NCBI GenBank assembly: GCA_011947345.1
Contig: JAAVTG010000142.1
Location: forward strand, 62,001-126,000
Length of the DNA stretch: 64,000 nt
Direction of reading: 5' to 3'
From: Phytophthora quininea
Lineage: Eukaryota > Oomycota > Peronosporomycetes > Peronosporales > Peronosporaceae
In this document: positions 4,801 to 42,091 of the stretch, one piece after another
Layout of the letters: each line of letters opens with the position of its first letter
Numbering within the stretch: position 1 is the stretch's first letter
Position numbers and translations under genes: made by a program
The notes under the pieces: model-generated
The model's input: only the letters and a program-made list of their open reading frames with translations
Database searches by the model: none
What the model was told of the DNA's origin: nothing

Positions 4801-7800
4801 TTCAGCAAACCGACCAGCTCGCGTTCCTTGCCAGCGTACTGCTTCGCCACAAGCGACACGTTCTTCAGCTTGTCGGGCTGGTGTTTCGAGTATAGCTCCT
4901 TCAACAAGTCTTCCAGCGTCACAGGAGGGGCCTCTGGTTGCTTTTGGGCCGGAGCGCTGGACCCGTCGATGTTGCGGCGCTGGCGAAGACCAGTCGGCGC
5001 AGCGCTACTCGGATTCAGTCCTCGAGGTGGGGCAAACGGCGGCTGATTCGTGTAGCCTTCATTCTCGTCACACTGCATCATCGGAGGAGGAGGACCATTC
5101 ATAGGTGGGCCTGTCATCGGAGCGCCTTCCTTCGGCGGTGCATTCATTGCCACATCATTCGTCGGAGGCCCATTAGTCGACTGAGGGAGGGACGGAGGAG
5201 CTACACTAACGCCGCCACCATCTTGCGCGACAGGGAATGCTGGGGAGGCGGGTCGGAGAAAGCAGAAATGCTACCTCCTGAACGACGTGGTCGAGGCGAC
5301 ACACGAGCTGCACGGAAAGAAGGGTTCCGCTCCGCACGATCTGGAGGCAGATCGCTCCCTGCATCAGCTCAGCAGTCTCTGATGCACCCGCGCTTTCAAC
5401 TGTATCCTGCGCAGGGGTACCCGAAGACGCGTCATGTGCAGGCGGAACGTCACCAGGGAGTATGTCACTGCTCAAATCAACACCAGTCGCAGGCGTCGGA
5501 GGATGGAAGAACTGCGGATGCCGAGGGTGGCCCTGACGCGGAGCCTTACTCAGTTCCGCCGCATTGGTGGTCTTCGTCGGATGGTTCTGGCCACCCTTGC
5601 CGTTGCGGGTATCTGCGCTGCTGCCATTTTCGAACCGAGCTTTCAACTCAGACACCTTTGCCGGACCGTATCGCTTTGTCAACTCCGCAAACAACCACTT
5701 CTCACGACCCGCGTACCGCTTCCCGTACACCTTGGCCATTTTCAAGCGCTTCTTGTCCACTTCCGTGAAGAAGTCAACCAACAGCATCTCCAATGAGACT
5801 AGCTCAGTCGACACGGGCTCCGTAGTCATCGGTTTGGTTTGCTTTGGAGCGGACGGTGCAGGACGCTGCGGCTGGCTATCCGCATCTACTGTTTCGGTAA
5901 CATTCGGTTCGGTGGGAGGAGGCGGAGGCGCTCCTATGGGAAGACTGGCCGCAGCGTCATGCTCAGACACAACGTTTTGTAACTCGGGAGTTGGTGTCGG
6001 GATCTCCTCTTCAACCTGAGAGCTGTCGGGGTACAGGCTCGGCTGCACAACGGTGTTGTGCTGTGGTGGCACTGTTTCTGCCATAGCTAACGCAGGCGGC
6101 TGCAAGCTACGCTGTTTTGCGTCCGAGATGGGATACGGTGCTGAACCAACATCGCCCTGCACCTTCAGCGGAGATGAACTCGATGGCGCTTGTACACTTT
6201 GAACGTCGCTCAATTCCCCGCGTCGCCACTTTCTGCTACACTGTTGTCCACTAATGAAGAAGCGTCATCGATATGCTGTTGTTCGTATGTGCTCTTGTTA
6301 GCGAGAGCCGCGTCCTCAATAGGGAGCATCGGCATCTGTTGTGTTGACTGTGGCACTGTAGCTTTGTACTTTTGTGTCTGTTCGATGGAAGCACTGACTG
6401 AATTTTGCTCCCCCACCTCCTCTTGTAGCGGCGATATGAGCACAGATTTGAGCTCGTATCCTGCACAAGTATTCGATGCAGCGATAGTAGTAGATGCTTG
6501 GCCATTTGCACCAGAAGACGACGTTACGGGGTCTAAACCCGTCGATACAATGGTGAAGGCGGGCGGTAAATTCTTCATGGGGGTGGTTCCACCGGATGCC
6601 CACGGATCCCATAGCGGTTGATTGAGTGAACGAGGCGATACAATTCCGAACCGGACCGCGTCACCGTCGTCCTTGCCTGGAGTTGGTTGCGTTGGGTGGT
6701 CTCTTAGATATTCCGGCAAGAGCCTTGGGGGTGCCAGTCTTTGACGCGGGAGTTGCTGTTCGTGTATACGTTTAATTTCCGACTCTGATGCGATGTCATC
6801 TTCATTACTTCCGGCGGCCCTTGCTGTTCAGCAATGGAAGCTGCAACATCGCTCACACCATAATTGCCAAGATCCGGTAAACCCATTGTGAACACTGGCG
6901 GCAAATTCTTCATGGGGTGCTTCCTCCTGATGCATACGGATCCCATAGGGGATGATGCGGCGATACTATCCCCAAACGATCCGAGTGCGAGATATCTTCT
7001 TGTCCCTTCAGGTCGGTGGTATGACCTCCCAACTCTTCAAATGATAATACTGGTCCTTCTGCCTCAACCTTTGGTTGCTGTTTCTTGCCTGTAGTTTGTG
7101 TTGCCATCGAATTGACTTCTTCAGCTATTGGGGCTAATGCTCCAATCATCACAGGATTCTTCTTGTTTGCGTGCTTCACCTCAGCTCGCTTCAATTTGGC
7201 CGACAGATCACGTATCAGTTGCTCCTGTTCCTCTAACTTTCGCCGTGCCAGTTCTCGATCCCGCTCCACCCCTTGCATCGTTCTCTCCATCTCAGTCAAC
7301 TTCGACAGCGACTGGGTCAGTTCCTCTTCTGTGTGCTGTTTAGTTTTGCGGAGCGTCGCTTCTGAGAGTTGCAGTTCCCTGACGTAGCCCATCAGACTAC
7401 TGACGTTGCTCCCCACCGACGGCAGCAACTTTGCTGCAGTCAGCTCGTTGGCGCGCATCTGGTGCCGTCGGCTGAGCTTAAAGCGTGGCTGCCTCGAGCT
7501 TTCCTTGTCTAACGTCGACGGGCATGACAGCGGTCCGTCCTTCTCTTCATCGCATACCGGTCCACTCGATGCAAATACGTTCTCCGAGCTATTTGCTCTC
7601 AATAGAGGCCGGCTGTGGGTCTGTGCCGGAGCTTGCTCCCAGCGGCCATTCGTGACTGGAAATTGCGCGATTGCATCCCCGTTAAGTGGCGTGGCAGAGC
7701 AATCGGGCGCTAAGCTGGTCGGCGGTCGGAGCGGTGGCGATGGCGATGGCGGCGCGCTTGCCGGTTCCCGCTCGTCCGGGCCGGACGCCTCTGTCGAATT

Positions 7801-7978
7801 CTGTTCTCCATGAGCTGCTGGAAATGTTGGCGACTCGTACTTGGACTTTGTATACAAACACTAGCTTTTGATGGGAGCTGCTGCTAGCTAGACAGCTACG
7901 TCGTATTTCGCTACTCTTTACACCTGCTATGACTACGTGCTGGTGACGGCGTTTGCTGGTTGATCTAAAGTTCGTCAT
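1827..7978 (-). CDS. Array gene copy 1: coiled-coil/TM/acidic protein, divergent C-terminus, possibly broken
   Basis: Leftmost array gene, product unknown. It reads from about 7978 leftwards through the coiled coil (about 7170-7475), two tryptophan motifs (near 6940 and 6610), two KYG-type modules (near 5700 and 4820), the TM segment (about 4607-4680) and the acidic tail. Its C-terminus differs from the other copies: past 2110 it reads through LDDNDD-like acidic sequence to end in ATLSES at 1827, with no DDEL. Besides one-base homopolymer breaks it has a 2-bp deletion near 4673, at the start of the TM segment, and a 4-bp deletion near 5371. Both are absent from copies 2 and 3 and would break the frame, so this copy may be a decaying pseudogene. 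The start is uncertain: an ATG at 7976-7978 needs a short intron (about 7865-7936) to join the main frame. Confidence 0.65.
2431..2449. repeat. GAG/CTC microsatellite (poly-Glu), copy 1
   Basis: A CTC triplet run encodes six consecutive Glu residues in the acidic tail of array copy 1. The same site has four in copy 2 (8541-8553) and five in copy 3 (14654-14669). It is the quickest marker for telling the copies apart and shows slippage since duplication. Confidence 0.9.
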
Positions 7979-10900
7979 CTACGCGCCGCGGCGCCTCGCT
8001 ATCTTCGGCAGCCGCAGCGGCGGTCTTCCGGGCTTCGAAGGGTTCTACTAGCCGCGCCAACACTTCGTTCACGGCAGACGCGAGCCCATTGCCCTCAGCG
8101 TCGTATTCTTCGTCAGGGGATCTCGCCTTACCATCACGGTCACTGTAAAGCTTTCCATCCACCGACGCTGCTCCAGCATCGACCACAGCCTCACTTCCAT
8201 CCTTCTCGATGCTCCCCGCAACCGCTGCGGTATCGACCTGCCCACCGAGCTCCTCGACAGGCTCAGTCGCAATCTCACCCGCATCGTTAAACACCTGAGT
8301 GGCTTCGATCGCCACCGAGTCCTCGTCCAACACGTCCACCACTTCACCCTCCTCAGACACAATTGCGTCGTCCGTTTCCTCATCCGACACGTCGACGCTG
8401 GCGTCTTCTCCACTTGTGCGTGCAGGCTCTTCCTCTTCATCCGGCCCCGCTGTCTCCTTCAAATCATCCCCAGCAACGGAGGGCGAATCGCCACCACCAC
8501 GGACAGCTTCTGATGACTTGACCTCAACATTGACTGGCGCCTCCTCCTCCTCCGACGCGACTTCGTCCTTGTCGTCCTCATTCAACCCCTCTGTCACATC
8601 ACTTTCAGAGACGACGCCATCTTCCGACACTTCGCCTGCATCGCCTGACACCCTATTGCTCTCACCGTCATCGTCCCCCATGGCCAGCCCATCGACCCAA
8701 ACCTCGTCGCTCTGCGAATCCTCAGACTCAACAGCAAAAGTGTCGGCCTCTTCTTCACCCTCCGCCTCAACAGTCTCCACGAACGCTTCATTCTCGACAT
8801 CGCCCGACTCCACGTCCTCCGCTTCAACTGCACCGACAAGAGCGTCCTCGGCTTCATTGACAGACTCACCGCTTGACTCGCTCACAGATCCGCCGGTCGA
8901 CTCAACGGCCACAGGTTCTTGCGCTTCCTCGGTTTCTACACCGTCCACCACAGCTTCACCATCATCGCCATCACCCCCAACCTCGTCGCTTTCGTTTTCT
9001 TGCGATCCGGTCTCAAATGAGCCATTTGATTCAGGTTCAGGTGAAACAGCAGACTCAACATCGTCTTCGGATTCTTCGTCCAGCGCCTCGCCTTCGGAGC
9101 TGGTAGCCACTTCAGCATCACTGGAACTCAATTCATTTGATTGAATATCGCCCAAGGGGATCGTCTCAGTAAAACTCGCACCCTCCGCGATACCCATATC
9201 CAGTCCAGCATCAAGCTCCGTCCGGTCGGTTTCCGCGTCACCAGCAGTATCCAACTCCCCTCGATCTCACTCACACTCTCAACAGGCTTCGTTTCCTCGA
9301 CCGTGGCATCAATAACCTCGTCAACAAAATCAGCAAGGTCTTTCCTCTCCTCAGGCGCCACAACATCAGTCGTATCCCCCTCCGGATTCGACAAGTCCAG
9401 GCCGTCCTGGTGCACCTCCATCTCTATAACATCTTCGGCATCCTTGTCGCTCTCTTCGGAAATTGTAGCCGTATTCGCTGCGGCGGCGTCTTCTTCCAAC
9501 GCGAAATCAGAGTTGTCAGCAACAACGTCGAGCGAACCATCCTCAGACGCAATCTTCTCGCGGTTAGTGACAGCAGAACTTTCCTCCACGATGCTGACCG
9601 GATCGGCCTCCTCAATCTGGTGAGTTGCAGAAACCTCATCAAGCTGACCCTCGTTCGTATCCTCTGCAATCGCGACATCAGAATCGTCAACGTCCACGCC
9701 AGTGTCAGAAGCCGATTCTTCCTGTTCGATCGCCGCCACTTCCTCCACGCCGTAAGCATCAGACCCCTCACTCTCTAGTGAACGTTGCTCGTTGCTCTCC
9801 ACACCAGCCGTGGATGCAGCCGCACTTTCCATAGCAATATCTGCGTTCGTGGCAAAGGCAACGGCTGCATCGTCTTCCTCAGAAAAACAGTTTCTTGACG
9901 TGCCTCCATGCCAATCGAAATGTCGCTGCTCTTCGCTTCGACCGGCGCTTCCTCAGGCACCTCAATACCGGCATTCACACGTGCACCCTCAGACACTTCT
10001 GCATCGATGTTCTCAACGATGCTCGCCTCGACATTCGCTTCAACACCAGCGCCCTCACCTGACTCCACGTCAGCGTTGAACTTGCTGTTTTCTGCCATGG
10101 CCTGCTTGAACTCACGTTCACGCTCACGTTCCTCCGACCCAATGTCGCTGTCAAACTCTAGATTCCCAGCGTCCACATCATTCGTAGTCTCGACGTAGTT
10201 ATCAGCTTGCACGTCGCTCTGAACACCCGCCACACCAACATCGTCCGACTTGGTGGACTCAACAGCATCCGACTCTGGCACCGACTTCACCTCCTTCATC
10301 TCCTTCGCCGGAGCATCGTCAAAACCCCACAACTCAACAACAGATGACCACACGAACGCGCCCACATCCAGCGACAGGTCGACCACAGGCTTTGCGTAGC
10401 TGTCATAGAACTCCTGCGACGGAACCTGCTCCTTCACGCTCGCGATCCATGGCTCACCGAAAGAGTCCGGTGAGAATGGTAGCAACCGAGCCAAACTCAC
10501 CAGGTCCTCACTGGACAAGTTCGACAGCAACGAACTCTCGCGCGCATTCCACTCCGAACAAAAGCACACCTCAGTGTGCGCCTGGCGCACATAATCACCC
10601 ACGCGCTCGTATGTGAACGACTCCAGCTCCTCTTTCAGAGGCGCACATTCCTCGGCTGCCTCATACTCGTCCTCATCGTTCCCAAGAGCACGGCACTCTC
10701 GAGCATCCAACACCACGAAACTCACGAACACCGCGCCAAAGGTGAAGAACAGCAGGGCCGACAGCCAATACAAAAGCGAGAGTGTGCGAACAAAGCAGCC
10801 ACGCTTCTTCTTCGCATCCCTGTTTGCTGAGCGAGCACGGTAGGCGCGCTCCAGCACCTCCAAGTTCTCCTCCAGACGCTTGACACTCGAACCACCGTAC

Positions 10901-13900
10901 TTTCCCTTCAGCAAACCGACCAGCTCGCGTTCCTTGCCAGCGTACTGCTTCGCCACAAGCGACACGTTCTTCAGCTTGTCGGGCTGGTGTTTCGAGTATA
11001 GCTCCTTCAACAAGTCTTCCAGCGTCACAGGAGGGGCCTCTGGTTGCTTTTGGGCCGGAGCGCTGGACCCGTCGATGTTGCGGCGCTGGCGAAGACCAGT
11101 CGGCGCAGCGCTACTCGGATTCAGTCCTCGAGGTGGGGCAAACGGCGGCTGATTCGTGTAGCCTTCATTCTCGTCACACTGCATCATCGGAGGAGGAGGA
11201 CCATTCATAGGTGGGCCTGTCATCGGAGCGCCTTCCTTCGGCGGTGCATTCATTGCCACATCATTCGTCGGAGGCCCATTAGTCGACTGAGGGAGGGACG
11301 GAGGAGCTACACTAACGCCGCCACCATCTTGCGCGACAGGGAATGCTGGGGAGGCGGGTCGGAGAAAGCAGAAATGCTACCTCCTGAACGACGTGGTCGA
11401 GGCGACACACGAGCTGCACGGAAAGAAGGGTTCCGCTCCGCACGATCTGGAGGCAGATCGCTCCCTGCATCAGCTGGTTCAGCAGTCTCTGATGCACCCG
11501 CGCTTTCAACTGTATCCTGCGCAGGGATACCCGAAGACGCGTCATGTGCAGGCGGAACGTCACCAGGGAGTATGTCACTGCTCAAATCAACACCAGTCGC
11601 AGGCGTCGGAGGATGGAAGAACTGCGGATGCCGAGGGTGGCCCTGACGCGGAGCCTTACTCAGTTCCGCCGCATTGGTGGTCTTCGTCGGATGGTTCTGG
11701 CCACCCTTGCCGTTGCGGGTATCTGCGCTGCTGCCATTTTCGAACCGAGCTTTCAACTCAGACACCTTTGCCGGACCGTATCGCTTTGTCAACTCCGCAA
11801 ACAACCACTTCTCACGACCCGCGTACCGCTTCCCGTACACCTTGGCCATTTTCAAGCGCTTCTTGTCCACTTCCGTGAAGAAGTCAACCAACAGCATCTC
11901 CAATGAGACTAGCTCAGTCGACACGGGCTCCGTAGTCATCGGTTTGGTTTGCTTTGGAGCGGACGGTGCAGGACGCTGCGGCTGGCTATCCGCATCTACT
12001 GTTTCGGTAACATTCGGTTCGGTGGGAGGAGGCGGAGGCGCTCCTATGGGAAGACTGGCCGCAGCGTCATGCTCAGACACAACGTTTTGTAACTCGGGAG
12101 TTGGTGTCGGGATCTCCTCTTCAACCTGAGAGCTGTCGGGGTACAGGCTCGGCTGCACAACGGTGTTGTGCTGTGGTGGCACTGTTTCTGCCATAGCTAA
12201 CGCAGGCGGCTGCAAGCTACGCTGTTTTGCGTCCGAGATGGGATACGGTGCTGAACCAACATCGCCCTGCACCTTCAGCGGAGATGAACTCGATGGCGCT
12301 TGTACACTTTGAACGTCGCTCAATTCCCCCGCGTCGCCACTTTCTGCTACACTGTTGTCCACTAATGAAGAAGCGTCATCGATATGCTGTTGTTCGTATG
12401 TGCTCTTGTTAGCGAGAGCCGCGTCCTCAATAGGGAGCATCGGCATCTGTTGTGTTGACTGTGGCACTGTAGCTTTGTACTTTTGTGTCTGTTCGATGGA
12501 AGCACTGACTGAATTTTGCTCCCCACCTCCTCTTGTAGCGGCGATATGAGCACAGATTTGAGCTCGTATCCTGCACAAGTATTCGATGCAGCGATAGTAG
12601 TAGATGCTTGGCCATTTGCACCAGAAGACGACGTTACGGGGTCTAAACCCGTCGATACAATGGTGAAGGCGGGCGGTAAATTCTTCATGGGGTGGTTCCA
12701 CCGGATGCCCACGGATCCCATAGCGGTTGATTGAGTGAACGAGGCGATACAATTCCGAACCGGACCGCGTCACCGTCGTCCTTGCCTGGAGTTGGTTGCG
12801 TTGGGTGGTCTCTTAGATATTCCGGCAAGAGCCTTGGGGGTGCCAGTCTTTGACGCGGGAGTTGCTGTTCGTGTATACGTTTAATTTCCGACTCTGATGC
12901 GATGTCATCTTCATTACTTCCGGCGGCCCCTTGCTGTTCAGCAATGGAAGCTGCAACATCGCTCACACCATAATTGCCAAGATCCGGTAAACCCATTGTG
13001 AACACTGGCGGCAAATTCTTCATGGGGTGCTTCCTCCTGATGCATACGGATCCCATAGGGGATGATGCGGCGATACTATCCCCAAACGATCCGAGTGCGA
13101 GATATCTTCTTGTCCCTTCAGGTCGGTGGTATGACCTCCCAACTCTTCAAATGATAATACTGGTCCTTCTGCCTCAACCTTTGGTTGCTGTTTCTTGCCT
13201 GTAGTTTGTGTTGCCATCGAATTGACTTCTTCAGCTATTGGGGCTAATGCTCCAATCATCACAGGATTCTTCTTGTTTGCGTGCTTCACCTCAGCTCGCT
13301 TCAATTTGGCCGACAGATCACGTATCAGTTGCTCCTGTTCCTCTAACTTTCGCCGTGCCAGTTCTCGATCCCGCTCCACCCCTTGCATCGTTCTCTCCAT
13401 CTCAGTCAACTTCGACAGCGACTGGGTCAGTTCCTCTTCTGTGTGCTGTTTAGTTTTGCGGAGCGTCGCTTCTGAGAGTTGCAGTTCCCTGACGTAGCCC
13501 ATCAGACTACTGACGTTGCTCCCCACCGACGGCAGCAACTTTGCTGCAGTCAGCTCGTTGGCGCGCATCTGGTGCCGTCGGCTGAGCTTAAAGCGTGGCT
13601 GCCTCGAGCTTTCCTTGTCTAACGTCGACGGGCATGACAGCGGTCCGTCCTTCTCTTCATCGCATACCGGTCCACTCGATGCAAATACGTTCTCCGAGCT
13701 ATTTGCTCTCAATAGAGGCCGGCTGTGGGTCTGTGCCGGAGCTTGCTCCCAGCGGCCATTCGTGACTGGAAATTGCGCGATTGCATCCCCGTTAAGTGGC
13801 GTGGCAGAGCAATCGGGCGCTAAGCTGGTCGGCGGTCGGAGCGGTGGCGATGGCGATGGCGGCGCGCCGGCTTGCCGGTTCCCGCTCGTCCGGGCCGGAC

Positions 13901-14092
13901 GCCTCTGTCGAATTCTGTTCTCCATGAGCTGCTGGAAATGTTGGCGACTCGTACTTGGACTTTGTATACAAACACTAGCTTTTGATGGGAGCTGCTGCTA
14001 GCTAGACAGCTACGTCGTATTTCGCTACTCTTTACACCTGCTATGACTACGTGCTGGTGACGGCGTTTGCTGGTTGATCTAAAGTTCGTCAT
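7965..14092 (-). CDS. Array gene copy 2: predicted type II ER-membrane protein with acidic tail and DDEL end
   Basis: Unrecognised family, roughly 2,000 residues. Order from the N-terminus: Pro/Ser-rich region; heptad-rich coiled coil (13280-13583, with a KLEEQEQLIRDL core); two motifs of the form PLWDP-A-GG-TP followed by MKNLPP (near 13040 and 12710); a Pro-rich linker; helical module 1 (about 11770-11910, with DKKRL..YGKRYAGRE..KRYG); helical module 2 (about 10890-11030, with KHQPDKL..KQYAGKE..GKYG); a Lys/Arg patch (KKKRGCF); one TM helix (about 10711-10783); a Cys-containing region (EECAP, EVCFCSEW); a Glu/Asp-dominated stretch of more than 700 residues; and the end RVDDEL at 7965. Basic residues before the TM and acidic ones after it predict a cytosolic N-terminus and a lumenal C-terminus. 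DDEL resembles KDEL-type ER retrieval signals. One-base breaks at C/G/T runs (about 13025, 12690, 11350, 9885, 9258) look like undercalls. A 4-bp insertion near 13868 clouds the N-terminus. Confidence 0.7.
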
Positions 14093-17000
14093 CTACGCGC
14101 CGCGGCGCCTCGCTATCTTCGGCAGCCGCAGCGGCGGTCTTCCGGGCTTCGAAGGGTTCTACTAGCCGCGCCAACACTTCGTTCACGGCAGACGCGAGCC
14201 CATTGCCCTCAGCGTCGTATTCTTCGTCAGGGGATCTCGCCTTACCATCACGGTCACTGTAAAGCTTTCCATCCACCGACGCTGCTCCAGCATCGACCAC
14301 AGCCTCACTTCCATCCTTCTCGATGCTCCCCGCAACCGCTGCGGTATCGACCTGCCCACCGAGCTCCTCGACAGGCTCAGTCGCAATCTCACCCGCATCG
14401 TTAAACACCTGAGTGGCTTCGATCGCCACCGAGTCCTCGTCCAACACGTCCACCACTTCACCCTCCTCAGACACAATTGCGTCGTCCGTTTCCTCATCCG
14501 ACACGTCGACGCTGGCGTCTTCTCCACTTGTGCGTGCAGGCTCTTCCTCTTCATCCGGCCCCGCTGTCTCCTTCAAATCATCCCCAGCAACGGAGGGCGA
14601 ATCGCCACCACCACGGACAGCTTCTGATGACTTGACCTCAACATTGACTGGCGCCTCCTCCTCCTCCTCCGACGCGACTTCGTCCTTGTCGTCCTCATTC
14701 AACCCCTCTGTCACATCACTTTCAGAGACGACGCCATCTTCCGACACTTCGCCTGCATCGCCTGACACCCTATTGCTCTCACCGTCATCGTCCCCCATGG
14801 CCAGCCCATCGACCCAAACCTCGTCGCTCTGCGAATCCTCAGACTCAACAGCAAAAGTGTCGGCCTCTTCTTCACCCTCCGCCTCAACAGTCTCCACGAA
14901 CGCTTCATTCTCGACATCGCCCGACTCCACGTCCTCCGCTTCAACTGCACCGACAAGAGCGTCCTCGGCTTCATTGACAGACTCACCGCTTGACTCGCTC
15001 ACAGATCCGCCGGTCGACTCAACGGCCACAGGTTCTTGCGCTTCCTCGGTTTCTACACCGTCCACCACAGCTTCACCATCATCGCCATCACCCCCAACCT
15101 CGTCGCTTTCGTTTTCTTGCGATCCGGTCTCAAATGAGCCATTTGATTCAGGTTCAGGTGAAACAGCAGACTCAACATCGTCTTCGGATTCTTCGTCCAG
15201 CGCCTCGCCTTCGGAGCTGGTAGCCACTTCAGCATCACTGGAACTCAATTCATTTGATTGAATATCGCCCAAGGGGATCGTCTCAGTAAAACTCGCACCC
15301 TCCGCGATACCCATATCCAGTCCAGCATCAAGCTCCGTCCGGTCGGTTTCCGCGTCACCAGCAGTATCCAACTCCCCTCGATCTCACTCACACTCTCAAC
15401 AGGCTTCGTTTCCTCGACCGTGGCATCAATAACCTCGTCAACAAAATCAGCAAGGTCTTTCCTCTCCTCAGGCGCCACAACATCAGTCGTATCCGCCTCC
15501 GGATTCGACAAGTCCAGGCCGTCCTGGTGCACCTCCATCTCTATAACATCTTCGGCATCCTTGTCGCTCTCTTCGGAAATTGTAGCCGTATTCGCTGCGG
15601 CGGCGTCTTCTTCCAACGCGAAATCAGAGTTGTCAGCAACAACGTCGAGCGAACCATCCTCAGACGCAATCTTCTCGCGGTTAGTGACAGCAGAACTTTC
15701 CTCCACGATGCTGACCGGATCGGTCTCCTCAATCTGGTGAGTTGCAGAAACCTCATCAAGCTGACCCTCGTTCGTATCCTCTGCAATCGCGACATCAGAA
15801 TCGTCAACGTCCACGCCAGTGTCAGAAGCCGATTCTTCCTGTTCGATCGCCGCCACTTCCTCCACGCCGTAAGCATCAGACCCCTCACTCTCTAGTGAAC
15901 GTTGCTCGTTGCTCTCCACACCAGCCGTGGATGCAGCCGCACTTTCCATAGCAATATCTGCGTTCGTGGCAAAGGCAACGGCTGCATCGTCTTCCTCAGA
16001 AAAACAGTTTCTTGACGTGCCTCCATGCCAATCGAAATGTCGCTGCTCTTCGCTTCGACCGGCGCTTCCTCAGGCACCTCAATACCGGCATTCACACGTG
16101 CACCCTCAGACACTTCTGCATCGATGTTCTCAACGATGCTCGCCTCGACATTCGCTTCAACACCAGCGCCCTCACCTGACTCCACGTCAGCGTTGAACTT
16201 GCTGTTTTCTGCCATGGCCTGCTTGAACTCACGTTCACGCTCACGTTCCTCCGACCCAATGTCGCTGTCAAACTCTAGATTCCCAGCGTCCACATCATTC
16301 GTAGTCTCGACGTAGTTATCAGCTTGCACGTCGCTCTGAACACCCGCCACACCAACATCGTCCGACTTGGTGGACTCAACAGCATCCGACTCTGGCACCG
16401 ACTTCACCTCCTTCATCTCCTTCGCCGGAGCATCGTCAAAACCCCACAACTCAACAACAGATGACCACACGAACGCGCCCACATCCAGCGACAGGTCGAC
16501 CACAGGCTTTGCGTAGCTGTCATAGAACTCCTGCGACGGAACCTGCTCCTTCACGCTCGCGATCCATGGCTCACCGAAAGAGTCCGGTGAGAATGGTAGC
16601 AACTGAGCCAAACTCACCAGGTCCTCACTGGACAAGTTCGACAGCAACGAACTCTCGCGCGCATTCCACTCCGAACAAAAGCACACCTCAGTGTGCGCCT
16701 GGCGCACATAATCACCCACGCGCTCGTATGTGAACGACTCCAGCTCCTCTTTCAGAGGCGCACATTCCTCGGCTGCCTCATACTCGTCCTCATCGTTCCC
16801 AAGAGCACGGCACTCTCGAGCATCCAACACCACGAAACTCACGAACACCGCGCCAAAGGTGAAGAACAGCAGGGCCGACAGCCAATACAAAAGCGAGAGT
16901 GTGCGAACAAAGCAGCCACGCTTCTTCTTCGCATCCCTGTTTGCTGAGCGAGCACGGTAGGCGCGCTCCAGCACCTCCAAGTTCTCCTCCAGACGCTTGA

Positions 17001-20000
17001 CACTCGAACCACCGTACTTTCCCTTCAGCAAACCGACCAGCTCGCGTTCCTTGCCAGCGTACTGCTTCGCCACAAGCGACACGTTCTTCAGCTTGTCGGG
17101 CTGGTGTTTCGAGTATAGCTCCTTCAACAAGTCTTCCAGCGTCACAGGAGGGGCCTCTGGTTGCTTTTGGGCCGGAGCGCTGGACCCGTCGATGTTGCGG
17201 CGCTGGCGAAGACCAGTCGGCGCAGCGCTACTCGGATTCAGTCCTCGAGGTGGGGCAAACGGCGGCTGATTCGTGTAGCCTTCATTCTCGTCACACTGCA
17301 TCATCGGAGGAGGAGGACCATTCATAGGTGGGCCTGTCATCGGAGCGCCTTCCTTCGGCGGTGCATTCATTGCCACATCATTCGTCGGAGGCCCATTAGT
17401 CGACTGAGGGAGGGACGGAGGAGCTACACTAACGCCGCCACCATCTTGCGCGACAGGGAATGCTGGGGAGGCGGGTCGGAGAAAGCAGAAATGCTACCTC
17501 CTGAACGACGTGGTCGAGGCGACACACGAGCTGCACGGAAAGAAGGGTTCCGCTCCGCACGATCTGGAGGCAGATCGCTCCCTGCATCAGCTGGTTCAGC
17601 AGTCTCTGATGCACCCGCGCTTTCAACTGTATCCTGCGCAGGGATACCCGAAGACGCGTCATGTGCAGGCGGAACGTCACCAGGGAGTATGTCACTGCTC
17701 AAATCAACACCAGTCGCAGGCGTCGGAGGATGGAAGAACTGCGGATGCCGAGGGTGGCCCTGACGCGGAGCCTTACTCAGTTCCGCCGCATTGGTGGTCT
17801 TCGTCGGATGGTTCTGGCCATCCTTGCCGTTGCGGGTATCTGCGCTGCTGCCATTTTCGAACCGAGCTTTCAACTCAGACACCTTTGCCGGACCGTATCG
17901 CTTTGTCAACTCCGCAAACAACCACTTCTCACGACCCGCGTACCGCTTCCCGTACACCTTGGCCATTTTCAAGCGCTTCTTGTCCACTTCCGTGAAGAAG
18001 TCAACCAACAGCATCTCCAATGAGACTAGCTCAGTCGACACGGGCTCCGTAGTCATCGGTTTGGTTTGCTTTGGAGCGGACGGTGCAGGACGCTGCGGCT
18101 GGCTATCCGCATCTACTGTTTCGGTAACATTCGGTTCGGTGGGAGGAGGCGGAGGCGCTCCTATGGGAAGACTGGCCGCAGCGTCATGCTCAGACACAAC
18201 GTTTTGTAACTCGGGAGTTGGTGTCGGGATCTCCTCTTCAACCTGAGAGCTGTCGGGGTACAGGCTCGGCTGCACAACGGTGTTGTGCTGTGGTGGCACT
18301 GTTTCTGCCATAGCTAACGCAGGCGGCTGCAAGCTACGCTGTTTTGCGTCCGAGATGGGATACGGTGCTGAACCAACATCGCCCTGCACCTTCAGCGGAG
18401 ATGAACTCGATGGCGCTTGTACACTTTGAACGTCGCTCAATTCCCCGCGTCGCCACTTTCTGCTACACTGCTGTCCACTAATGAAGAAGCGTCATCGATA
18501 TGCTGTTGTTCGTATGTGCTCTTGTTAGCGAGAGCCGCGTCCTCAATAGGGAGCATCGGCGTCGCTTGCGACGGAGACTCCATCAACGGAACTTTTCTCG
18601 TGTCTGGGAATCGTACGGCACATTTTGCGTTTCACCAAAGACAAAATCTTGCTGCTGTGGAAATGGAGGTGATGGAGGCATTGCACCAACATTAAATACG
18701 GGAGCAGGAAACTGTGGAGCGAAGAGGCCATCACGGCGCACAGTAGGCTTTACCGTTTCCTGGTACTGTTGAACGTCTGGTGCTCCTACAGGCGGAGCCT
18801 GCATTTGTTCTCGACGGGGAGACATTAACACAGATTTCAATTCGTAGTCTGTAGCCCTTGTAATCAAATCAGTCGTGGATGTCTGCGAAGCGGACGTAGC
18901 TGATGATACGAGAGGGTCAAGTCCAGTAGACGCGATGTTAAACACTGGTGGCAGGTTCTTCATGGGGTGGCACCTCCAGTTGCCCACGGATCCCACAACG
19001 GGCGATTTGGCGACGTAGCCGATGCAAGTCCGAACCTTTCTGAGCGGGTAGTCAAGTGTGGTGCAGTTGCAGCAAGCTCATCTGATGTGAGCACTAGCGG
19101 CTTTTGCTGTTGATCGACGACACCTGCCGATGCTTTTGTCTCTGTTTCTGGGTGTGAATTTGTTTCTTCAGTAATTGACGGCAGCTCGTCGACAGCAGCA
19201 ACCGTATTGGCTTTGGACCTTGTCTTTGCCTTGGCCTGTGCTGCTTCGGCCTGCTTTAACTTAGCGGCCAAGTCTCGGATCAATTGCTCCTGCTCCTCCA
19301 GTTTCTGCCGAGCCATTTCGCGGTCACGTTCTACCTCTTGCATACTTTTCTCCAGCTCATTCACTTTCGACAGCGACTGAGTAAGCTCATCCTCCGTATG
19401 CTGCTTCGTTTTCACGAGCTGTTTCCTAAGACTGGCCTCTGACATTTGCAGTTCACGGACGTAACCCATCAAACTGTTCACACTGCTTTCCACGCTAGGC
19501 AGCAGCTTTGCCGCCATCACCTCGTTGCTGCGCAGTTGGCGAAGCTTGTCAATCGAAAACTGCGGCTGCCTGGCGCTGTCGTTCAAGTTCGTCGGGCACG
19601 ATTGCGGGCCGTTCCTTTTTCATCGTAGGGCTGTTGGTTGGCGACAAACGTGCTCTCGGAACTGTTAGCTCTCGATCCAGCGCGGCTGTCTGCATGTCCC
19701 GACAACCCCATGCGCACCCGTTGGGCTGCGCTCAATCCGTTGTCAGAGTTCGGGTACGCTGGCTTCCCCAGCGGTGTCTTGGGGGTTGCACACCGAATGC
19801 AACGGCCTCATGTACTAGTTTGGGCTCCTTCTCCGTAGCGTGGGACTTAACTACAGCAGTTGAAGTCGATGTAGTCGTTGAAGTCACTACCGTCGTGCCA
19901 CTACTGGAAGTGTTAACCGCATTACTGTCAGCTGGCGAAGAGAAGAGCGACGCAGCCGACGCCAGCTCTGCCTGTGCAGCAGTCGGTTCTGCCTTGACTG

Positions 20001-35191: not shown

Positions 35192-38100
35192 TCAATCGGT
35201 CGGGTCGCCGAAGTACCGAATGATGCCGTGCGAGACCTGCACCAAACTGTCATCCTCAAGCGCGCGCAGAGCCATCTGGAACTCGGCGCCCTTGACTTCG
35301 CTTTGCCGCTTCTCTTCAATGTGCCGGCGCGTCTCTCCTACGGTCATGGACTGGTTTGCCGCTCCGGTTAAAACCTCCTTGATCGCGGAAATCAAATCAG
35401 CCAGGGACTCGCGCTCGAGAACACTATGACCCGTGTTGATCATATCCATATCGATCGTGCCAGTGCGCGGGTCCATGGCTGCGCGCTGGGTCGCCACATT
35501 CATGAGTCGCAGGGCTTCGTCCACATCGCTGGCGGTCACAGTTGTGCACAGCTTGAGTTTCGCAAGCGCTTCCGAAATTCGGATGAGTGATTCCAACTGC
35601 CGAGGCGTGGCCGTGATGTTCTTCTTTGCCGATGCTGCACTGGCGCCACCCATGCGACGCAAATCCAGGTATGCGCGGATGAGAGCATCGCGAGCTTCGG
35701 CGGACAGTCGAGGGTATATTGTACGCTTAGCGTACGCAATGTACTCGGTCAACAGCTTCATACTGATGAGCTGTGGAGCGGCGTCGCCACCTCGAGCTTG
35801 AGCGCGCACGCGCGCACGTGTCTCCTCGTCATAATACAGAGCGACAATGTGTTTTGCCAGCTTGCGATCCGATTCCGCTTGCGGCTTGTCGAGAATGAGG
35901 TAGATGAGATCAAACCGTGAAAGTAGAGTGGGCAAAATATTAACGTTTTCGACCACCGACTTGTTCGGGTTGTAGCGCGACTCAATGGGGTTGGCAGATG
36001 CAAGAATGGAGGCTCGCGCGTTCAGAGAGCAAATAATGCCTGCCTTGGCAATACTCACGGTTTGTTGCTCCATCACTTCGTGCAGCACAGAGCGAGCCGA
36101 GTCGCTCATCTTGTCGAACTCATCGATACAGCAAATGCCCTCGTCCGATAGAACCAAAGCACCGGACTCGAGCACGAGATCGTTTGTTTCCATATCACGG
36201 ATCAGCGAGGCTGTGAGACCAACTGCTGAACTACCCTTTCCTGAGGTGTAAATGCTGCGCGGCGAAAGCTTATGCACGTACGAAAGTAGCTGAGACTTGG
36301 ATGTGCCAGGGTCTCCGCACAGCAGAACATTCATATCTGACCGCATCGCTTTGCGCTTAGGCGCTACTCCGCCGAGTTCTTGTTCGTCAGTAGCTTCATT
36401 GACACTTCCGTTGCTCCCATCTTTTCGCGTGCCACCGAAAAGCATGCATAAGATTCCCTTTTTCACGTCGTCCAGTTCCCAGATAGACGGCGCCAGGGAA
36501 TGAGCCAGGTTTTCATACACACGAGGGTGCGCAGCAATGCGACGGAAAGCTGCCAATTTACGCTGTTCCTGGGCATCTGCAGCCGCGGCAGCGTCAACGT
36601 GATCTTCGAATGCATCGGGCATATCGACGTCGATATCTGCCGGTCCGATGGCGCTGGTCTCGTGCTCCTCCTCTTGCGCAGTCGAATTCAGGCTCTCTCC
36701 ATTTTCACCCTCTTCACGACGAGAGAGCTCATCCACACGACGGAAGTGCACCACGTCAACGTACGTCTTAAAAACAGACTTCACTACACGTTGCCGTGAG
36801 TTGGAGCGCATTGGCACAGCACGATAAATCCCTGTCACCTCCACTTTGTCGCCAGGCCGCACCCCGTCTACCAGATCATCGAAAGCAAACAACAGCACTG
36901 TGTACGGTGTCTCGCCCTCGGGGATGGCATCAGGCGTTTCTTGCATTTTGATCATTTGTTTGTCTGTGAAAGCACAACGGTTGTGAAGCATCTCCATACT
37001 CATGCGCGACGAGCAGCGCACGCAGCTAGTAGGTTCCTCAATTCGACCACGATCAAGCGGTACCTGAGCTGTAGCATGGCACATCGCACAGCGGAAGAAC
37101 GCTTCCTTCAAGTCCGGCAACACTCCACTACAGCGCGTAACCATACCCTTGAGACAGACTAACTGGTCGATATCCGACGGGTTCAGATGCCGCAGCGGCG
37201 AAAGCTCACGTAAGTTAAACGGCCGCACTTGCAACGCGACATTGGCCAGGTTCTCCATCGCAGCAGCTCCAGCGCCAGGACTCGTCATCAGCGACAAATA
37301 CTCCTCTGTCACTACCATATCCAAGATTCGGATCAGCACCTGCGGGAACAACACCAACTGATTATACAGCTTCCTTGCGCCACGGAACTGCCGAAGGTGC
37401 TGGGTATCGAGATCCAGCACCAGCGACTGGGTAAGCGCCATTCTCCTCAGCTCTTTGACGTAGAACGGTTCTTCCTGTACGTTGTCATCCTGTCGGAACT
37501 GGTGCAAGAAGCCTCTGAAGAGCTCCATCGACTCGGAGACGCTAATGTTGGTGCCCCAGACCACAGCTCCTGAAAAAGCCTGCTGTTCCTGTTGTTGCTG
37601 CTGCTGGAACTGAGAGAACGCGGACGCTGAAGCAGAAGCCGAGGCGCTGGACCTCGGCGAGCTGGGTGGAGATGCCGGAGGGCGAGGCAGCGCTGGGTCT
37701 TGTGTGGGCAGGGGCATCCCGGAAACGCTGCTGCGGATACTGGCCACGGAGCTGCTGCTGGGCGACGACGGCACTCCAGGTCCCATGGCATGAGGCCCCT
37801 CCTGCTGTGGGAAGGTGTCGAGTCTCCACTCTCGCCGTCCCAGGTCTCCTCTGGGCAGTTGGCGCTGCGCCATGCGTCTCAGCTCGGCCTCCACGTCGTC
37901 TTCGTCTTGATCGTCTCCATCGGCTCCGTAGCGGCCTAAATACCGCGGCGCCGGGGTCGCGTCCACTGAAGCACTGGTCTCTTGGAATCCGAAGCGGCCT
38001 GGCAGGTCAGTGGCCGACACGGCGGACATGGAGACGGCCGAGGCGGACACGGACTGCGAGGACGATGGGGACAGAGGAGACAGCGGCGCTCCATCGTTGC

Positions 38101-38239
38101 CGGGTCTGAGAGGATCAGTAGGAGCGGAGATCGCTAGTGGAGGCGCTACAGGCGGAGAAGTTAGCGCCTCGCGGGTCAGATACCGCGGCGTCGGCGGACT
38201 GGACGGCGGCGTCGCGGGAGGCGTCCCGTTGTCGCCCAT
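35192..38239 (-). CDS. MCM4: MCM4, replicative helicase subunit
   Basis: Subunit of the MCM2-7 helicase that unwinds DNA at replication origins. Single uninterrupted exon of about 1,015 residues from 38239 (MGDNGTPPATPP). The first ~190 residues are Ser/Pro-rich with many SP and TP sites, as in MCM4 tails phosphorylated by CDK/DDK. The N-terminal domain contains a CAMC..CVRC zinc finger (near 37030-37100). AAA+ signatures: GDPGTSKSQLL (Walker A, about 36300), LSDEGICCIDEFDKM (Walker B), ASANPIESRYNP (sensor 1) and LPTLLSRFDLIYLI (arginine finger). The ENVNILPTLLSRFDLIYLILDK block points to MCM4 among the paralogues. A C-terminal winged-helix region ends at 35192. An in-frame upstream ATG exists at 38317, but an E2F-type site lies between it and 38239, favouring the shorter form. 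Confidence 0.97.
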   Translation of the reverse strand: MGDNGTPPATPPSSPPTPRYLTREALTSPPVAPPLAISAPTDPLRPGNDGAPLSPLSPSSSQSVSASAVSMSAVSATDLPGRFGFQETSASVDATPAPRYLGRYGADGDDQDEDDVEAELRRMAQRQLPRGDLGRREWRLDTFPQQEGPHAMGPGVPSSPSSSSVASIRSSVSGMPLPTQDPALPRPPASPPSSPRSSASASASASAFSQFQQQQQQEQQAFSGAVVWGTNISVSESMELFRGFLHQFRQDDNVQEEPFYVKELRRMALTQSLVLDLDTQHLRQFRGARKLYNQLVLFPQVLIRILDMVVTEEYLSLMTSPGAGAAAMENLANVALQVRPFNLRELSPLRHLNPSDIDQLVCLKGMVTRCSGVLPDLKEAFFRCAMCHATAQVPLDRGRIEEPTSCVRCSSRMSMEMLHNRCAFTDKQMIKMQETPDAIPEGETPYTVLLFAFDDLVDGVRPGDKVEVTGIYRAVPMRSNSRQRVVKSVFKTYVDVVHFRRVDELSRREEGENGESLNSTAQEEEHETSAIGPADIDVDMPDAFEDHVDAAAAADAQEQRKLAAFRRIAAHPRVYENLAHSLAPSIWELDDVKKGILCMLFGGTRKDGSNGSVNEATDEQELGGVAPKRKAMRSDMNVLLCGDPGTSKSQLLSYVHKLSPRSIYTSGKGSSAVGLTASLIRDMETNDLVLESGALVLSDEGICCIDEFDKMSDSARSVLHEVMEQQTVSIAKAGIICSLNARASILASANPIESRYNPNKSVVENVNILPTLLSRFDLIYLILDKPQAESDRKLAKHIVALYYDEETRARVRAQARGGDAAPQLISMKLLTEYIAYAKRTIYPRLSAEARDALIRAYLDLRRMGGASAASAKKNITATPRQLESLIRISEALAKLKLCTTVTASDVDEALRLMNVATQRAAMDPRTGTIDMDMINTGHSVLERESLADLISAIKEVLTGAANQSMTVGETRRHIEEKRQSEVKGAEFQMALRALEDDSLVQVSHGIIRYFGDPTD

Positions 38240-38260: not shown

Positions 38261-38364
38261 AAAAAGTGTCTGTTGGATACACAATTTCAAAATCGCAGCA
38301 ACAGCAACAACCACCAAACTCGAGATGCAGCGGAAGATGCCAAGTGCTCTACTATCCGTAAATT

Positions 38365-38470
38365 GCTCCTCTCCGAGCGATTTTCCAGCGGCGAACCGCC
38401 AAAGCCCGCAGATGCGGGTGAGCCGCAGATAGTCCGGCTTCGTCGAGCTGCACTACAACGATTCCAGCGC
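38365..38470 (-). ncRNA. Candidate Fanzor guide-RNA (fRNA/omega-like) scaffold
   Basis: Just past the Fanzor stop, on the Fanzor-sense strand, three short hairpins follow each other: CCCGC/GCGGG with a 4-base loop (38404-38417), GCGG-UUCG-CCGC with a classic UUCG tetraloop (38388-38399) and GCUC/GAGC (38365-38378). TnpB and Fanzor guide RNAs overlap the 3' end of the nuclease gene and continue downstream, so this is where one would be expected. The same stretch is also about 130-180 bp upstream of MCM4, so the hairpins could instead belong to that promoter or leader. Confidence 0.35.
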
Positions 38471-39665
38471 TCCAGCATGCACGAAGCGCAGGATGTTGAA
38501 CGCAGCATTTTGGTCGCGACCAACGCTAAACTCACAGTGCGGGCAATCAAACACGTCCAGGCTGCCGAGAGCAAGGTTCGACTCGTTGCATCTGGCGCAG
38601 GTTCGGCTCGTATACATTTCTGAGCAAACCACTAACGCGATGCCCTTGCGCGCGCACTTCGTCGTAAGATACTGCCGGAACTGGAAATGCTTCAGAGACA
38701 GGAGGTTCTTGTTGAACTCGTGGTTTCTTGCGCAGCTCCGTTTCAGCATCTCTGTAGTCCGGAAGCTTGGGAGCAGGATAGTTGTGTATCTGTTGGTCAG
38801 ATACGCGGTTGCCTTGCGGTGGAGGTCCTTCACCAAATTGCTGAGTTTGGCAGACGCATAGCTGAGTGTACGCTTGGCTTTCGCGTACGTTTTGTAGCGC
38901 CATCTCTTTGGGCCCACGGCGCGACTTGAACCTGGATATCACGGATTTCGCCTCGTTTTGCCGAGAGCGTAGCTTTTCCATCTTGATCTTGGTTCCGCGA
39001 CCGATCTCAAACGCATTACCGCTCGTATCAAAACCCGTGAGAAAGCACTTAATCCCTGGGTCGAGCGCCACAGTTGTATTCGTCGCTGGGTGTGTCTGCG
39101 GACCGACTTGGCTTGGGATGCAAGCATTCCAGAAGCCTTGTTCGTTCGTGATCGTTACGTCGCCATCAATTGACGGCACCCTATTAGAGAGAACACGAAT
39201 GCCGGCTATCCCTGCGATGGACAGCCAAGTCTCACCGTCTCGAGCGCCACTAGAGCAATGCAGCGCGCTGCAAGTTATTGGGAAGTAGCGTTTCTGCTTC
39301 TTGCTAACGAAATTGATGTTGAAACGGCGGATGTTTCCTCTGGAGATATTGGTGAATGCTGCCTTCACGGCACCAGCCAGCCTCCGCATCGTGTTGGACC
39401 GGTAGTCATAGGGAGTCTCGTGTGCCCATGGTGGAGGCGGTCCTTGATTTTCGGGGTAGGAGCGGTCGTTTTGTGTGGTACGAGTGACATACAAGTTTGC
39501 TAGTCTGTAGCTGCTGGCGGAACCGGTTGCTCGGAAGTGTGCAACCCCTTGGTTATACGTCCACCGGCAGGTTCCCATGAAGCGTCTTAGGGCATGGACT
39601 TGGGCTCGATTCGGCATCAGCCGCACCTTCCGAGTCGTCATATGCGTTTTGTCGTGCATCTTCAT
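38453..39665 (-). CDS. Fanzor (eukaryotic TnpB-like RNA-guided nuclease)
   Basis: About 400 residues related to bacterial TnpB and eukaryotic Fanzor proteins, which are RNA-guided DNA endonucleases carried by mobile elements. The N-terminal part has the TnpB-like KVRLMPNRAQVHALRRFMG..RWTYN start (start chosen at 39665), then RRFNINFVSKKQKRYFP. RuvC-I: TTVALDPGIKCFLTGFD (catalytic Asp, about 39045). The canonical RuvC-II position lacks a Glu-Asp pair; instead a Glu sits in VVCSEMYTSRTCARC, the relocated glutamate known from Fanzor. RuvC-III: GRDQNAAFNIL (Asp, about 38510). The inserted zinc finger is CARC..CPHC. One frame change at 38909-38920 falls in GGGCCC; one extra G and one extra C would restore continuity. 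No terminal repeats were recognised. Confidence 0.88.
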
Positions 39666-39699
39666 TGCTTTAGCAGCCCAGGATCTAGCGCAGCGGTAG

Positions 39700-40008
39700 C
39701 TAGTAGTTTGATTGTCGAGGGGTGAACGATGTTCTCTCCATGATCGAGAACCAGGAGGAGAAGCGTGTAAGCTGTGACAGCGGCCGCTCCGATGCGAGTG
39801 TTTCGACGTATTCGTTGCCAAATACTTGATTCATCTTGCGCTTAGCGTATGGCCCCAGTTTGTCCAGTAGAGGACGATATTGGTGATGTGTCGACCGAAG
39901 AAGAAGCGCCAGCAGCTCCGCCATAATCCGATGAACCTCTGCGGTGCTGATCTTCTCCAACTTCGTCTTTGGGCTGCAGGCGACCAACTCGTCTAGCGGA
40001 TCCGACAT
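39700..40008 (-). CDS. Unknown helical ORF, possibly truncated by the Fanzor element
   Basis: Open frame from an ATG at 40008 (MSDPLDELVACSPKTKLEK) to 39700. It is Leu-rich and helical (RIMAELLALLLRSTHHQY..LDKLGPYAKRKMN) and looks like real coding sequence in composition. It ends 35 bp from the Fanzor start on the same strand. I do not recognise a family. It could be the N-terminal exon of a gene interrupted by insertion of the Fanzor element, or a small gene in its own right. Confidence 0.4.
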   Translation of the reverse strand: MSDPLDELVACSPKTKLEKISTAEVHRIMAELLALLLRSTHHQYRPLLDKLGPYAKRKMNQVFGNEYVETLASERPLSQLTRFSSWFSIMERTSFTPRQSNY

Positions 40009-40416
40009 TGTGGCGGTCAGCGGGCCCCGGCACAGCTTGAACGCAGTCCATGCCAGCTTCCATAGCCGACCGGCTAAGAAGCCACGAAGACGGAGACACA
40101 CGCGCTCATCGCTGCTGTGAATGAATAGAAGACTGCGAAGAGAGACCCAGCGGCGCTTTGAACTCGTCGCCTGAACCAGACGTGGAGAGGTGTGGAGGCT
40201 GTGCGCCGGCGCTTGCTGGAGATGGGAGTTGGATGTGGCGATCGCTCACGCTTACGTCGCGACCTAACAACCGTCGGGGAGGAATGGCGAGAAGACAGCT
40301 ACCAGGAGAATGCGACGCATTCGACGCACTCACAAAGGACATGAAGAAGAGCAATCCTTCGAACGGAGAAGAACACACCTACTAAACGTGTTTTCGTCGC
40401 ACTTCGCGTGGAGATT

Positions 40417-40833
40417 TCAGCAAAATGGCTGCAGTGCAGTGAAAATGGTCTGTTGGAATCGATCTTCCAACTCTTCGATGAAATTGTCACCGACCAGGAT
40501 GGCGAGGACAGCACTGATGGGGGCGTTGGAATTCTTGTCCAGCACGGCTGCAGACCAGTCGTTCAGGTCTCCGGTAATGATCGCGTGGTGGCCATCGTCC
40601 ACAGCATCGTTCGCCAAACCAGCGAGGACCGTCGCCTGCCCCTCGCGCTCAAAGCAGCGCGCCTTGTTCTCTGGGTTAGCTAGAAAATGAGCCCCAACGA
40701 GAGTAAGGGGCTTGGAGAAGCCAGTCACGTTAAAAGTCGTGTAGAAATGCTTGGACACACCATGCACTACTTTCTGTGGAGCTACCCCTTTCTCGGGCTG
40801 TTCTACTATCTCTACAGGGTGGGTGCTGTGCAA
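40417..40833 (-). pseudogene. Fragment of an endonuclease/exonuclease/phosphatase-family protein
   Basis: The reading frame contains VVHGVSKHFYTTFNV, LTLVGAHFLANPENKARC and HAIITGDLNDW, the last being the GDxNDW core of the EEP (DNase I/sphingomyelinase-like) fold. About 130 residues remain of a domain that normally needs 250 or more. There is no ATG in frame; the open frame may begin at a splice acceptor near 40822. Downstream (left) the frame closes at 40417 and the C-terminal catalytic His part is not found before the next ORF. Its 5' end overlaps the first DGAT2 exon on the other strand. A remnant is the simplest reading; unrecognised exons are the alternative. Confidence 0.6.
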
Positions 40834-41986
40834 GTGCTTTCAGTTCAACGCTCTGCTTCTAACGACGTACTGGTAATAGATTGGCTACGGCTACGTGGCT
40901 GTGGCGATGGTGGCGTTGTACCTGCCGTCGTTCTTCAGCGGTGCTCAGAAGACGGGCAAGGGCAGCTCCTGGGACATTGTCCGCGCGTCGCCTCTGTGGG
41001 GGATGACCAACAAATTTCTTGGGTTCGTTCACACTGCAGTCGATATTGTCAATAATTTGCTAACTTGTTGTATGGACAGCACCAAAATCATCCGCGAGCA
41101 GGAGCTGGACCCCAACAATAAATACATTTTCAGGTTCCACCCGCACGGGATCATCGTGCTCTCGCGTCTTGCAATCTGCGGCGGGAACTTCGAGTATCTC
41201 TTCCCAAAATCTCGTACCGAAGTATGATCATACTTGTTGGTTGGAGGAGTTAACTCATTTTGCACTTTTGGTCTTGGTTGCTGCAGTTCTCGGAGCGTCT
41301 GCGATGTTTTACATTCCTATCGGTCGCGAGTTTTGCCTATGGATGGGAGGTGTCGACGCCTCGCGATCGACCGGCGAAAAGGTGATGAAAGAAGGCAACA
41401 GCATTATCGTCTATCCTGGAGGCACACAAGAAATTTTCCGCACCAACCCGAACTCGAAGGAGGTAGGTACCTTTAGAATGGGTGTTATGCAGTAGATGGA
41501 AGCAACATTTCTTAACTGTGTTTTGATTTAGACACAACTGGTTTTACAAAAGCGTCTCGGATTCATCAAGCTCGCGATGCGTAATGGTGCCGACCTCGTG
41601 CCTACTTTTGTCTTCGGTGAAAAGTGGCTTTACAAGTGAGTCGGCACGCCTTACTGTTCTAATAGCAAGAAGATTTATTAACTGCTACGTTTTTGTTTTA
41701 GCATGTGGAGTCCACCTAAGAGTGTGACGGACTTCTTTCGCAAGGCGCTAGGGATCCCAGTGCTCGTCTTTTGGGGCAAGTTCTGGTGGATTCCGAACCC
41801 CCGCCAAAAGGAAAACGCTACGGAGTCGTGTATGGAAACCCCATCCCCACGAAGCTCACTCCTGATCCGACAGAGGAAGAGCTTCGCGCCGTGCACAAGC
41901 ACTATGTCGCCGAAATTCAGCGAATCTTCGCGGAGTACAAGGCGGACTTTGGCTACGATGACGACGAAACGTTGGCTATCATTTAG
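40747..41986 (+). CDS. DGAT2: Diacylglycerol acyltransferase, DGAT2 family
   Basis: ER-membrane acyltransferase making triacylglycerol from diacylglycerol and acyl-CoA. Diagnostic motifs: YLPSFFSGAQKTGKG, the HPHG active-site block (IFRFHPHGIIVLSRLA, about 41130-41180), the MFYIPIGREFCLWMGGVDASR segment, IIVYPGGTQE, GFIKLAMRNGADLVPTFVFGE and YGVVYGNPIPTKL. Five introns fit the phases: 40819-40879, 41023-41079, 41222-41286, 41463-41531 and 41636-41701. One-base shortfalls at A4 (near 41209) and C5 (near 41800) are needed to join conserved sequence. Exon 1 (MLGHTMHYFLWSYPFLGLF) carries the hydrophobic segment of the family. The end at 41986 is 105 bp from the convergent formin stop. Confidence 0.92.
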
Positions 41987-42091
41987 CTTTGCCAGGTCGT
42001 CCATTCATCGCTGCCGGCGTGGGGTCTGCACTGGAGGCTGCGGCATGATTGCTAGAACTACTGCGCGGCTGCTCTGATGCACTATGACGGC

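Follow-up and report, generated by a model that had tools for sequence, protein, structure and literature searches.

RNA-guided DNA cutting by way of an RNA from the element's 3′ end has been demonstrated for Fanzors, whose guide RNAs take their guide from the 3′-terminal flank (PMC10432273, available sections). The accessible part of PMC3627910 lists Fanzor2 families of Phytophthora sojae, P. capsici and P. ramorum. There, Bao and Jurka also describe one-ended transposition with 3′ hairpins for the Chlamydomonas Fanzor1 Helitron2 elements CRe-1, CRe-2 and CRe-3, and a Mucor family with a constant 3′ region and a variable 5′ region. Fanzor2* denotes Fanzor2 carried by cut-and-paste transposons of Chloropicon and molluscs (PMC10711439, sections available). 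Here we describe a Fanzor gene copy, assigned to Fanzor2 on the strength of its relatives, that lies upstream of MCM4 in a 64,000-nt stretch of Phytophthora quininea DNA (“the window”, contig C89:62001-126000 of an 87-Mb assembly). The enzyme family is already known; the route by which this copy travelled is unusual. With a probability of roughly 0.78, it is a decayed Fanzor2 gene that was moved, within a chimeric segment, from a locus like that on contig C206 into one haplotype, upstream of MCM4. The locus bears on how Fanzor2 units move without a transposase. It shows two insertions whose order can be told, alongside a site free of the unit. No IS607 recombinase was detected in the assembly, and in one haplotype the sequence upstream of MCM4, an essential replication gene, is altered.

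All parts of the gene are read from the minus strand. The N-terminal half of the core (38916..39665), which holds the helix-turn-helix and the DPG aspartate (DPG at residue 202 of this half), matches PF12323 (HTH_OrfB_IS605) with an E value of 3.8e-9. This domain, in the part of PMC3627910 at hand, is seen in some TnpB and Fanzor2 proteins and left undetermined for Fanzor1. The C-terminal half (38453..38917), in a different frame, holds the relocated Glu, the zinc ribbon and the final Asp and matches PF07282 (Cas12f1-like_TNB) over 38456-38917 with an E value of 1.4e-18, the stop codon lying at 38453-38455. The original prediction had recognized a Fanzor that keeps all three RuvC residues and a CARC..CPHC zinc finger, and on both counts it was right: LDPGIKCF, SEMYTSRTC, CARC..CPHC and GRDQNAAFNI were all found in the window translations. 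The C-terminal half further satisfies the relocated-Glu pattern E-x6-CxxC-x(12,18)-CxxC-x(4,8)-D, an agreement far beyond chance; in this Fanzor pattern (Ealt) the Glu stands ahead of the first zinc-ribbon CxxC (PMC10711439, in the sections available). The D-P and E columns were invariant in an alignment of 30 sequences, and a widened form of the relocated-Glu motif occurred in 34 of the 64 proteins compared, several of the remainder being partial. Both domains, the pattern and the DPG support a Fanzor-type protein.

For comparison we used proteins P0002, P0003 and P0004 of Phytophthora oleae, P. citrophthora and P. nicotianae, whose records are named hypothetical protein/transposase, putative transposase and mitochondrial folate carrier. 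Amino acid identity between these and the window core was 41-45% for the N-terminal half (43-45% for the P. oleae and P. citrophthora proteins) and 57-59% for the C-terminal half (58-59% for P0002 and P0003); PF12323 is also present in P0002 (E 7e-10). Because the intact P. oleae relative (550 aa) models closest to mimivirus Fanzor2 (L79, PDB 9b0l), the gene is filed as Fanzor2, a refinement that the predicted fold of relatives supports. The same structure was the best match for the relatives by profile and structure and for the window C-terminal half by sequence. No match named Fanzor1 or SpuFz1 appeared in the PDB sequence searches or among the structure matches listed, which is not proof of distance. 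With mimivirus Fanzor2 the family shares HTH_OrfB_IS605, DPG, the relocated Glu, the zinc ribbon and the fold, intact relatives being ∼550 aa long. It differs in that the window copy is broken, in having an oomycete N-terminal extension, and in that no IS607-type serine recombinase was detected, PF00239 giving 0 matches in the whole assembly (E ≤ 0.001) and being found in 10 of 14 control genomes.

The conserved N-terminal extension (39727..39963) lies inside an open reading frame (ORF) at 39700-40101 and was located by tblastn with P0003 residues 13-88 (29% identity, E 2.6e-6). It occupies a third frame, and the extension and the two core halves of the window copy are thus spread over three frames rather than a single open one. 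P0002-P0004, which belong to the same family, differ in being continuous in a single frame and in retaining the residues that join the extension to the core; the 86 such residues of P0003 (89-174) have no counterpart in the window. The gene had been proposed to be possibly intact, its only frame change lying in GGGCCC, a kind of site thought to be miscounted across the window. Neither intactness nor a sole frame change held up. On contig C206 there are two further Fanzor copies, of which C206A is a near copy of the window gene. C206A is likewise out of frame at the junction of the two core halves, with a length there that differs by one from that of C89; C206A and C206B both have a stop codon within the extension, and C206B is truncated inside the N-terminal half. 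A protein search with the N-terminal-half frame of C206A gave just 3 matches. A single miscounted run common to the copies was rejected as the cause of the break, since C89 and C206A are both out of frame with unequal lengths. The suspicion of miscounted sites was reasonable for the assembly as a whole: over 10,009 nt, C934, a contig end overlapping C89, departs from it by no substitution and by 6 changes of length, all within runs or short repeats. At the Fanzor break, however, the letters of C934 are the same as those of C89, although C934 may rest on the same reads. From these frames we infer that the window copy no longer encodes a working protein. An active, intact Fanzor with a guide RNA, its frame breaks being sequencing errors or bridged by splicing or frameshifting, would suit the retained catalytic residues, the length noise of the assembly and the identity with C206A of 448 of 450 nt over 38864-38415. 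The three frames, the break in C206A at the same spot with another length, the stop codons in the extension of both C206 copies and the missing 86 residues make it very improbable.

Single-base length differences against the sister contig C959 were also seen in the adjacent formin-like gene (42388, 42546, 43080, 44547, 44579 and 46903), and those at 42546, 43080, 44579 and 46903 recur against the second sister contig, C960. The broken formin-like frames in the window are probably assembly noise, at least in part.

The Fanzor gene is contained in a 3.6-kb segment (38344..42012) that is absent from both sister contigs of C89, which carry 125 bp (C959) and 127 bp (C960) of other sequence in its place and match the window at ∼97-98% on both sides of it. 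C89 is unlike them from a point more than ∼105 bp upstream of the MCM4 ATG (38239) to 42012. The segment is 95-97% identical to C206:100944-104825 and is chimeric. Next to the Fanzor unit it holds a fragment of an endonuclease/exonuclease/phosphatase-like host gene (40475..40761, minus strand), which has a longer open frame at C206:89507-90379. Near 40756 this fragment meets a 5′-truncated diacylglycerol-acyltransferase copy (40762..41986, plus strand; PF03982, 1.7e-7; 97% identical to C206:100944-102095) that ends at its stop codon (41986). On C206 the acyltransferase gene is split: the Fanzor unit and 287 bp of the endonuclease-like gene separate an N-terminal coding part (C206:104845-104931) from a remainder (∼102445-100944). 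The exon is uninterrupted in a paralogue at C206:110226-111661; an uninterrupted allele of the split gene was sought and not found. The window holds only the part of the split gene on the 5′ side of the Fanzor unit. Because the unit splits the exon at C206 and the window has this 5′-side part only, insertion at C206 came first and the copy to C89 second, and the direction of transfer was from C206 to C89. Copying would have carried the segment from the C206-like locus into one haplotype, at a break upstream of MCM4, and may have cost ∼125 bp at the MCM4 site; no target-site duplication was seen at this insertion.

Divergence of the segment from C206A is uneven, falling to 129 of 150 nt identical over 39903-39754 against the near-identity given above for 38864-38415, which suggests later exchange between the copies. 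A 265-bp long terminal repeat (LTR)-like sequence (L027:7068-7333), with a possible GACGT duplication, lies in the C206 acyltransferase intron and occurs at 16 other places in the genome with 95-100% identity. Since it has no counterpart in C89, it probably arrived after the copying.

Several observations weigh against a decayed copy that was moved into one haplotype. The segment differs from its source by ∼5%, more than the ∼2% separating C89 from its sister contigs, and the copying may therefore predate the split of the haplotypes. C959 and C960 may themselves have lost the segment and represent the derived state. For the N-terminal half, Ka/Ks between C89 and C206A is 0.51 (9 synonymous and 15 nonsynonymous differences), which is below full neutrality, though the changes are few (values with C206B were set aside because its truncated end brings in some codons that are not homologous). 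Run-length errors in the assembly are real, so that the frame state of C89 taken alone is uncertain.

An alignment of other copies had been proposed as a way to locate the ends of the element; when run, it gave our main result. On the left, the Fanzor unit probably ends at ∼40447: this end (CATTTTCACTGCA.., 40391..40447, minus strand) recurs, each time next to other sequence, in C206A, in C206B (which lacks ∼20 nt of it) and as a solo stretch at C206:111840-111902. On the right, the unit ends in a terminal hairpin (38360..38383, minus strand), where homology with C206A stops; in C206A the loop of this hairpin is turned the other way. Beyond it the acyltransferase exon follows at once in C206A; in C89 a 16-nt filler (38344..38359, minus strand) precedes the MCM4-side DNA. 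Elsewhere this filler occurs only in C934 (search with ≤3 mismatches). The right-end sequence was found in only three places (C206A, C89 and C934), and no transposase with these ends was found. Terminal inverted repeats were rejected for the window unit, the best being 8 nt, and 59 of 300 shuffles did as well. At the C89 left junction a small inverted repeat can be made out; it is shortened in C206A. The solo left-end copy, 63 nt long (L028:6840-6902; C206:111840), follows immediately upon the 3′ flank of the paralogous acyltransferase gene.

As to how the segment was copied, we give an even chance to ordinary segmental duplication, or to a double-strand break mended with filler DNA; the shared 3′ end would then reflect a hairpin prone to breakage or template switching. 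Bases were deleted at both target sites with no target-site duplication seen, and both the filler and the patchwork of three gene pieces are of a kind with such repair. Taken alone, this process does not foresee that both events stop at the element's own 3′ terminus. Serial one-ended mobility from the 3′ terminal hairpin (IS91/Helitron2-like) would do so: failed 5′ termination would drag along upstream host DNA at each move, the endonuclease fragment being picked up first and the acyltransferase next. The identical 3′ hairpin end at both insertions with a growing 5′ side, and the inverted loop of the terminal hairpin between C206A and C89, favor it, and by a rough inference a random breakpoint would fall ≤5 nt from the hairpin end with a chance of ∼0.003 over 4 kb. 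Precedents are the Chlamydomonas and Mucor cases, as far as the available text of PMC3627910 describes them. However, just two insertions with this 3′ end are in hand, target bases were lost at both and filler was added at one, and neither a transposase with these ends nor a terminal inverted repeat above chance was found. With just two events and no transposase, ordinary duplication is ranked higher, and one-ended mobility is regarded as possible, on the unlikely side. The fuller proposal is somewhat more doubtful: that a Fanzor2 unit, in an assembly without detectable IS607 recombinase, served as a gene-capturing vehicle, serially copied one-ended from its 3′ hairpin and adding upstream host DNA each time, and in this way brought along an acyltransferase and an endonuclease fragment and displaced, in one haplotype, the sequence upstream of MCM4.

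Also bearing on one-ended mobility, and in its favor, is a related family (C508) with 49-58% amino acid identity to the window C-terminal half. Six of the eight copies examined (the exceptions being C171 and the C942 fragment) have the same right end within ∼5 nt, with five different right flanks, and the left ends are not all alike. Two Fanzor2 copies, C508 (L035:6637-9149) and C687 (L037:6306-8820), are flanked by 143-nt inverted repeats, the left one repeating the element's own 3′ end in inverted orientation. This left repeat is missing from the other listed copies, and the repeats were dropped as a family feature or as the mark of a Fanzor2* transposon. On C591, a Fanzor C-terminal half is interrupted by 2.8 kb of inserted DNA (L042:5300-8063) carrying a PIF1-type helicase frame (Helitron-like).

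Compared with CRe-1, CRe-2 and CRe-3, the window unit is alike in its constant 3′ end with a terminal hairpin and its variable 5′ end. It differs in being Fanzor2 rather than Fanzor1, in 5′ growth with host genes rather than 5′ truncation, and in lacking terminal inverted repeats above chance. Helitron2 elements have asymmetric terminal inverted repeats and a hairpin at each end; the window unit has a 3′ hairpin and the small inverted repeat at its left junction. It resembles Fanzor2* in being a Fanzor2-type protein outside an IS607 element, but has no terminal inverted repeats, such repeats being present on both sides in only two copies of the C508 family. If one-ended copying is true, mobility would start at the same end that is expected to make the guide RNA; should the fixed 3′ end hold in more copies, the guide-RNA end would be tied to mobility, which makes a testable model.

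The three hairpins predicted 3′ of the stop codon, including one with a UUCG tetraloop, are all present. In the centroid fold of the minus strand, hairpin 1 (38405..38418) and the UUCG-loop hairpin 2 (38385..38402) precede the terminal hairpin. Their proposed role as a guide-RNA scaffold is possible but unproven, and we treat it as a candidate only: the hairpins exist, but the fold of C89 is not clearly more stable than shuffled sequences (z −1.11; 30 of 200 shuffles equally good), and the relatives compared show almost no covariation. C206A folds better (z −2.62; 4 of 200 shuffles), probably owing to its perfect terminal hairpin. Covariation between C89 and C206A cannot show, because the two are nearly identical over the 3′ region; in the C508 family 1 of 45 pairs is changed on both sides, these sequences too being overly similar for covariation. 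At gathering thresholds, Rfam gave 0 matches in the window. The 3′ end of the C508 family also recurs at C186:19193-19335 and C709:138586-138726, on contigs with no listed Fanzor protein match; these copies are candidates for RNA-only ghost loci.

The ancestral enzyme would, like other Fanzors, have bound RNA from the element's 3′ end and cut DNA matching the tail of that RNA. The guide had been expected, should the element use its 3′ flank in this way, to come from the MCM4 upstream region, which stands only in part. If the element ends at 38360, the first 16 nt of its flank would be the filler, with MCM4-side sequence from 38343 onward. Since the C89 guide tail would be this filler, MCM4 upstream sequence would add little. 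For scale, three insect-virus Fanzor1 guide RNAs extended ∼15 nt beyond the target-site duplication of the element (PMC10711439, available sections).

MCM4, named in the original prediction as the neighbor of the Fanzor gene, is confirmed as such by Pfam: an intact ORF at 35192..38239 (minus strand) matches PF00493 (1.6e-93) and PF21128 (3.1e-6). Among the best 120 of 576 matches, it is 77-86% identical to full-length MCM4 of Phytophthora, Peronospora, Bremia, Hyaloperonospora and Nothophytophthora, and no near-identical MCM4 was found. Two partial Phytophthora records match at 89-90% over 77% of its length. Elsewhere in the window, a tandem array at 2106-18563 has a unit of ∼6.1 kb with copies 99.6% identical. 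On C206, an inverted pair of aldo-keto-reductase-like genes (L029:128-3155; named by eye from the translation) is 99.8% identical over 1.1 kb.
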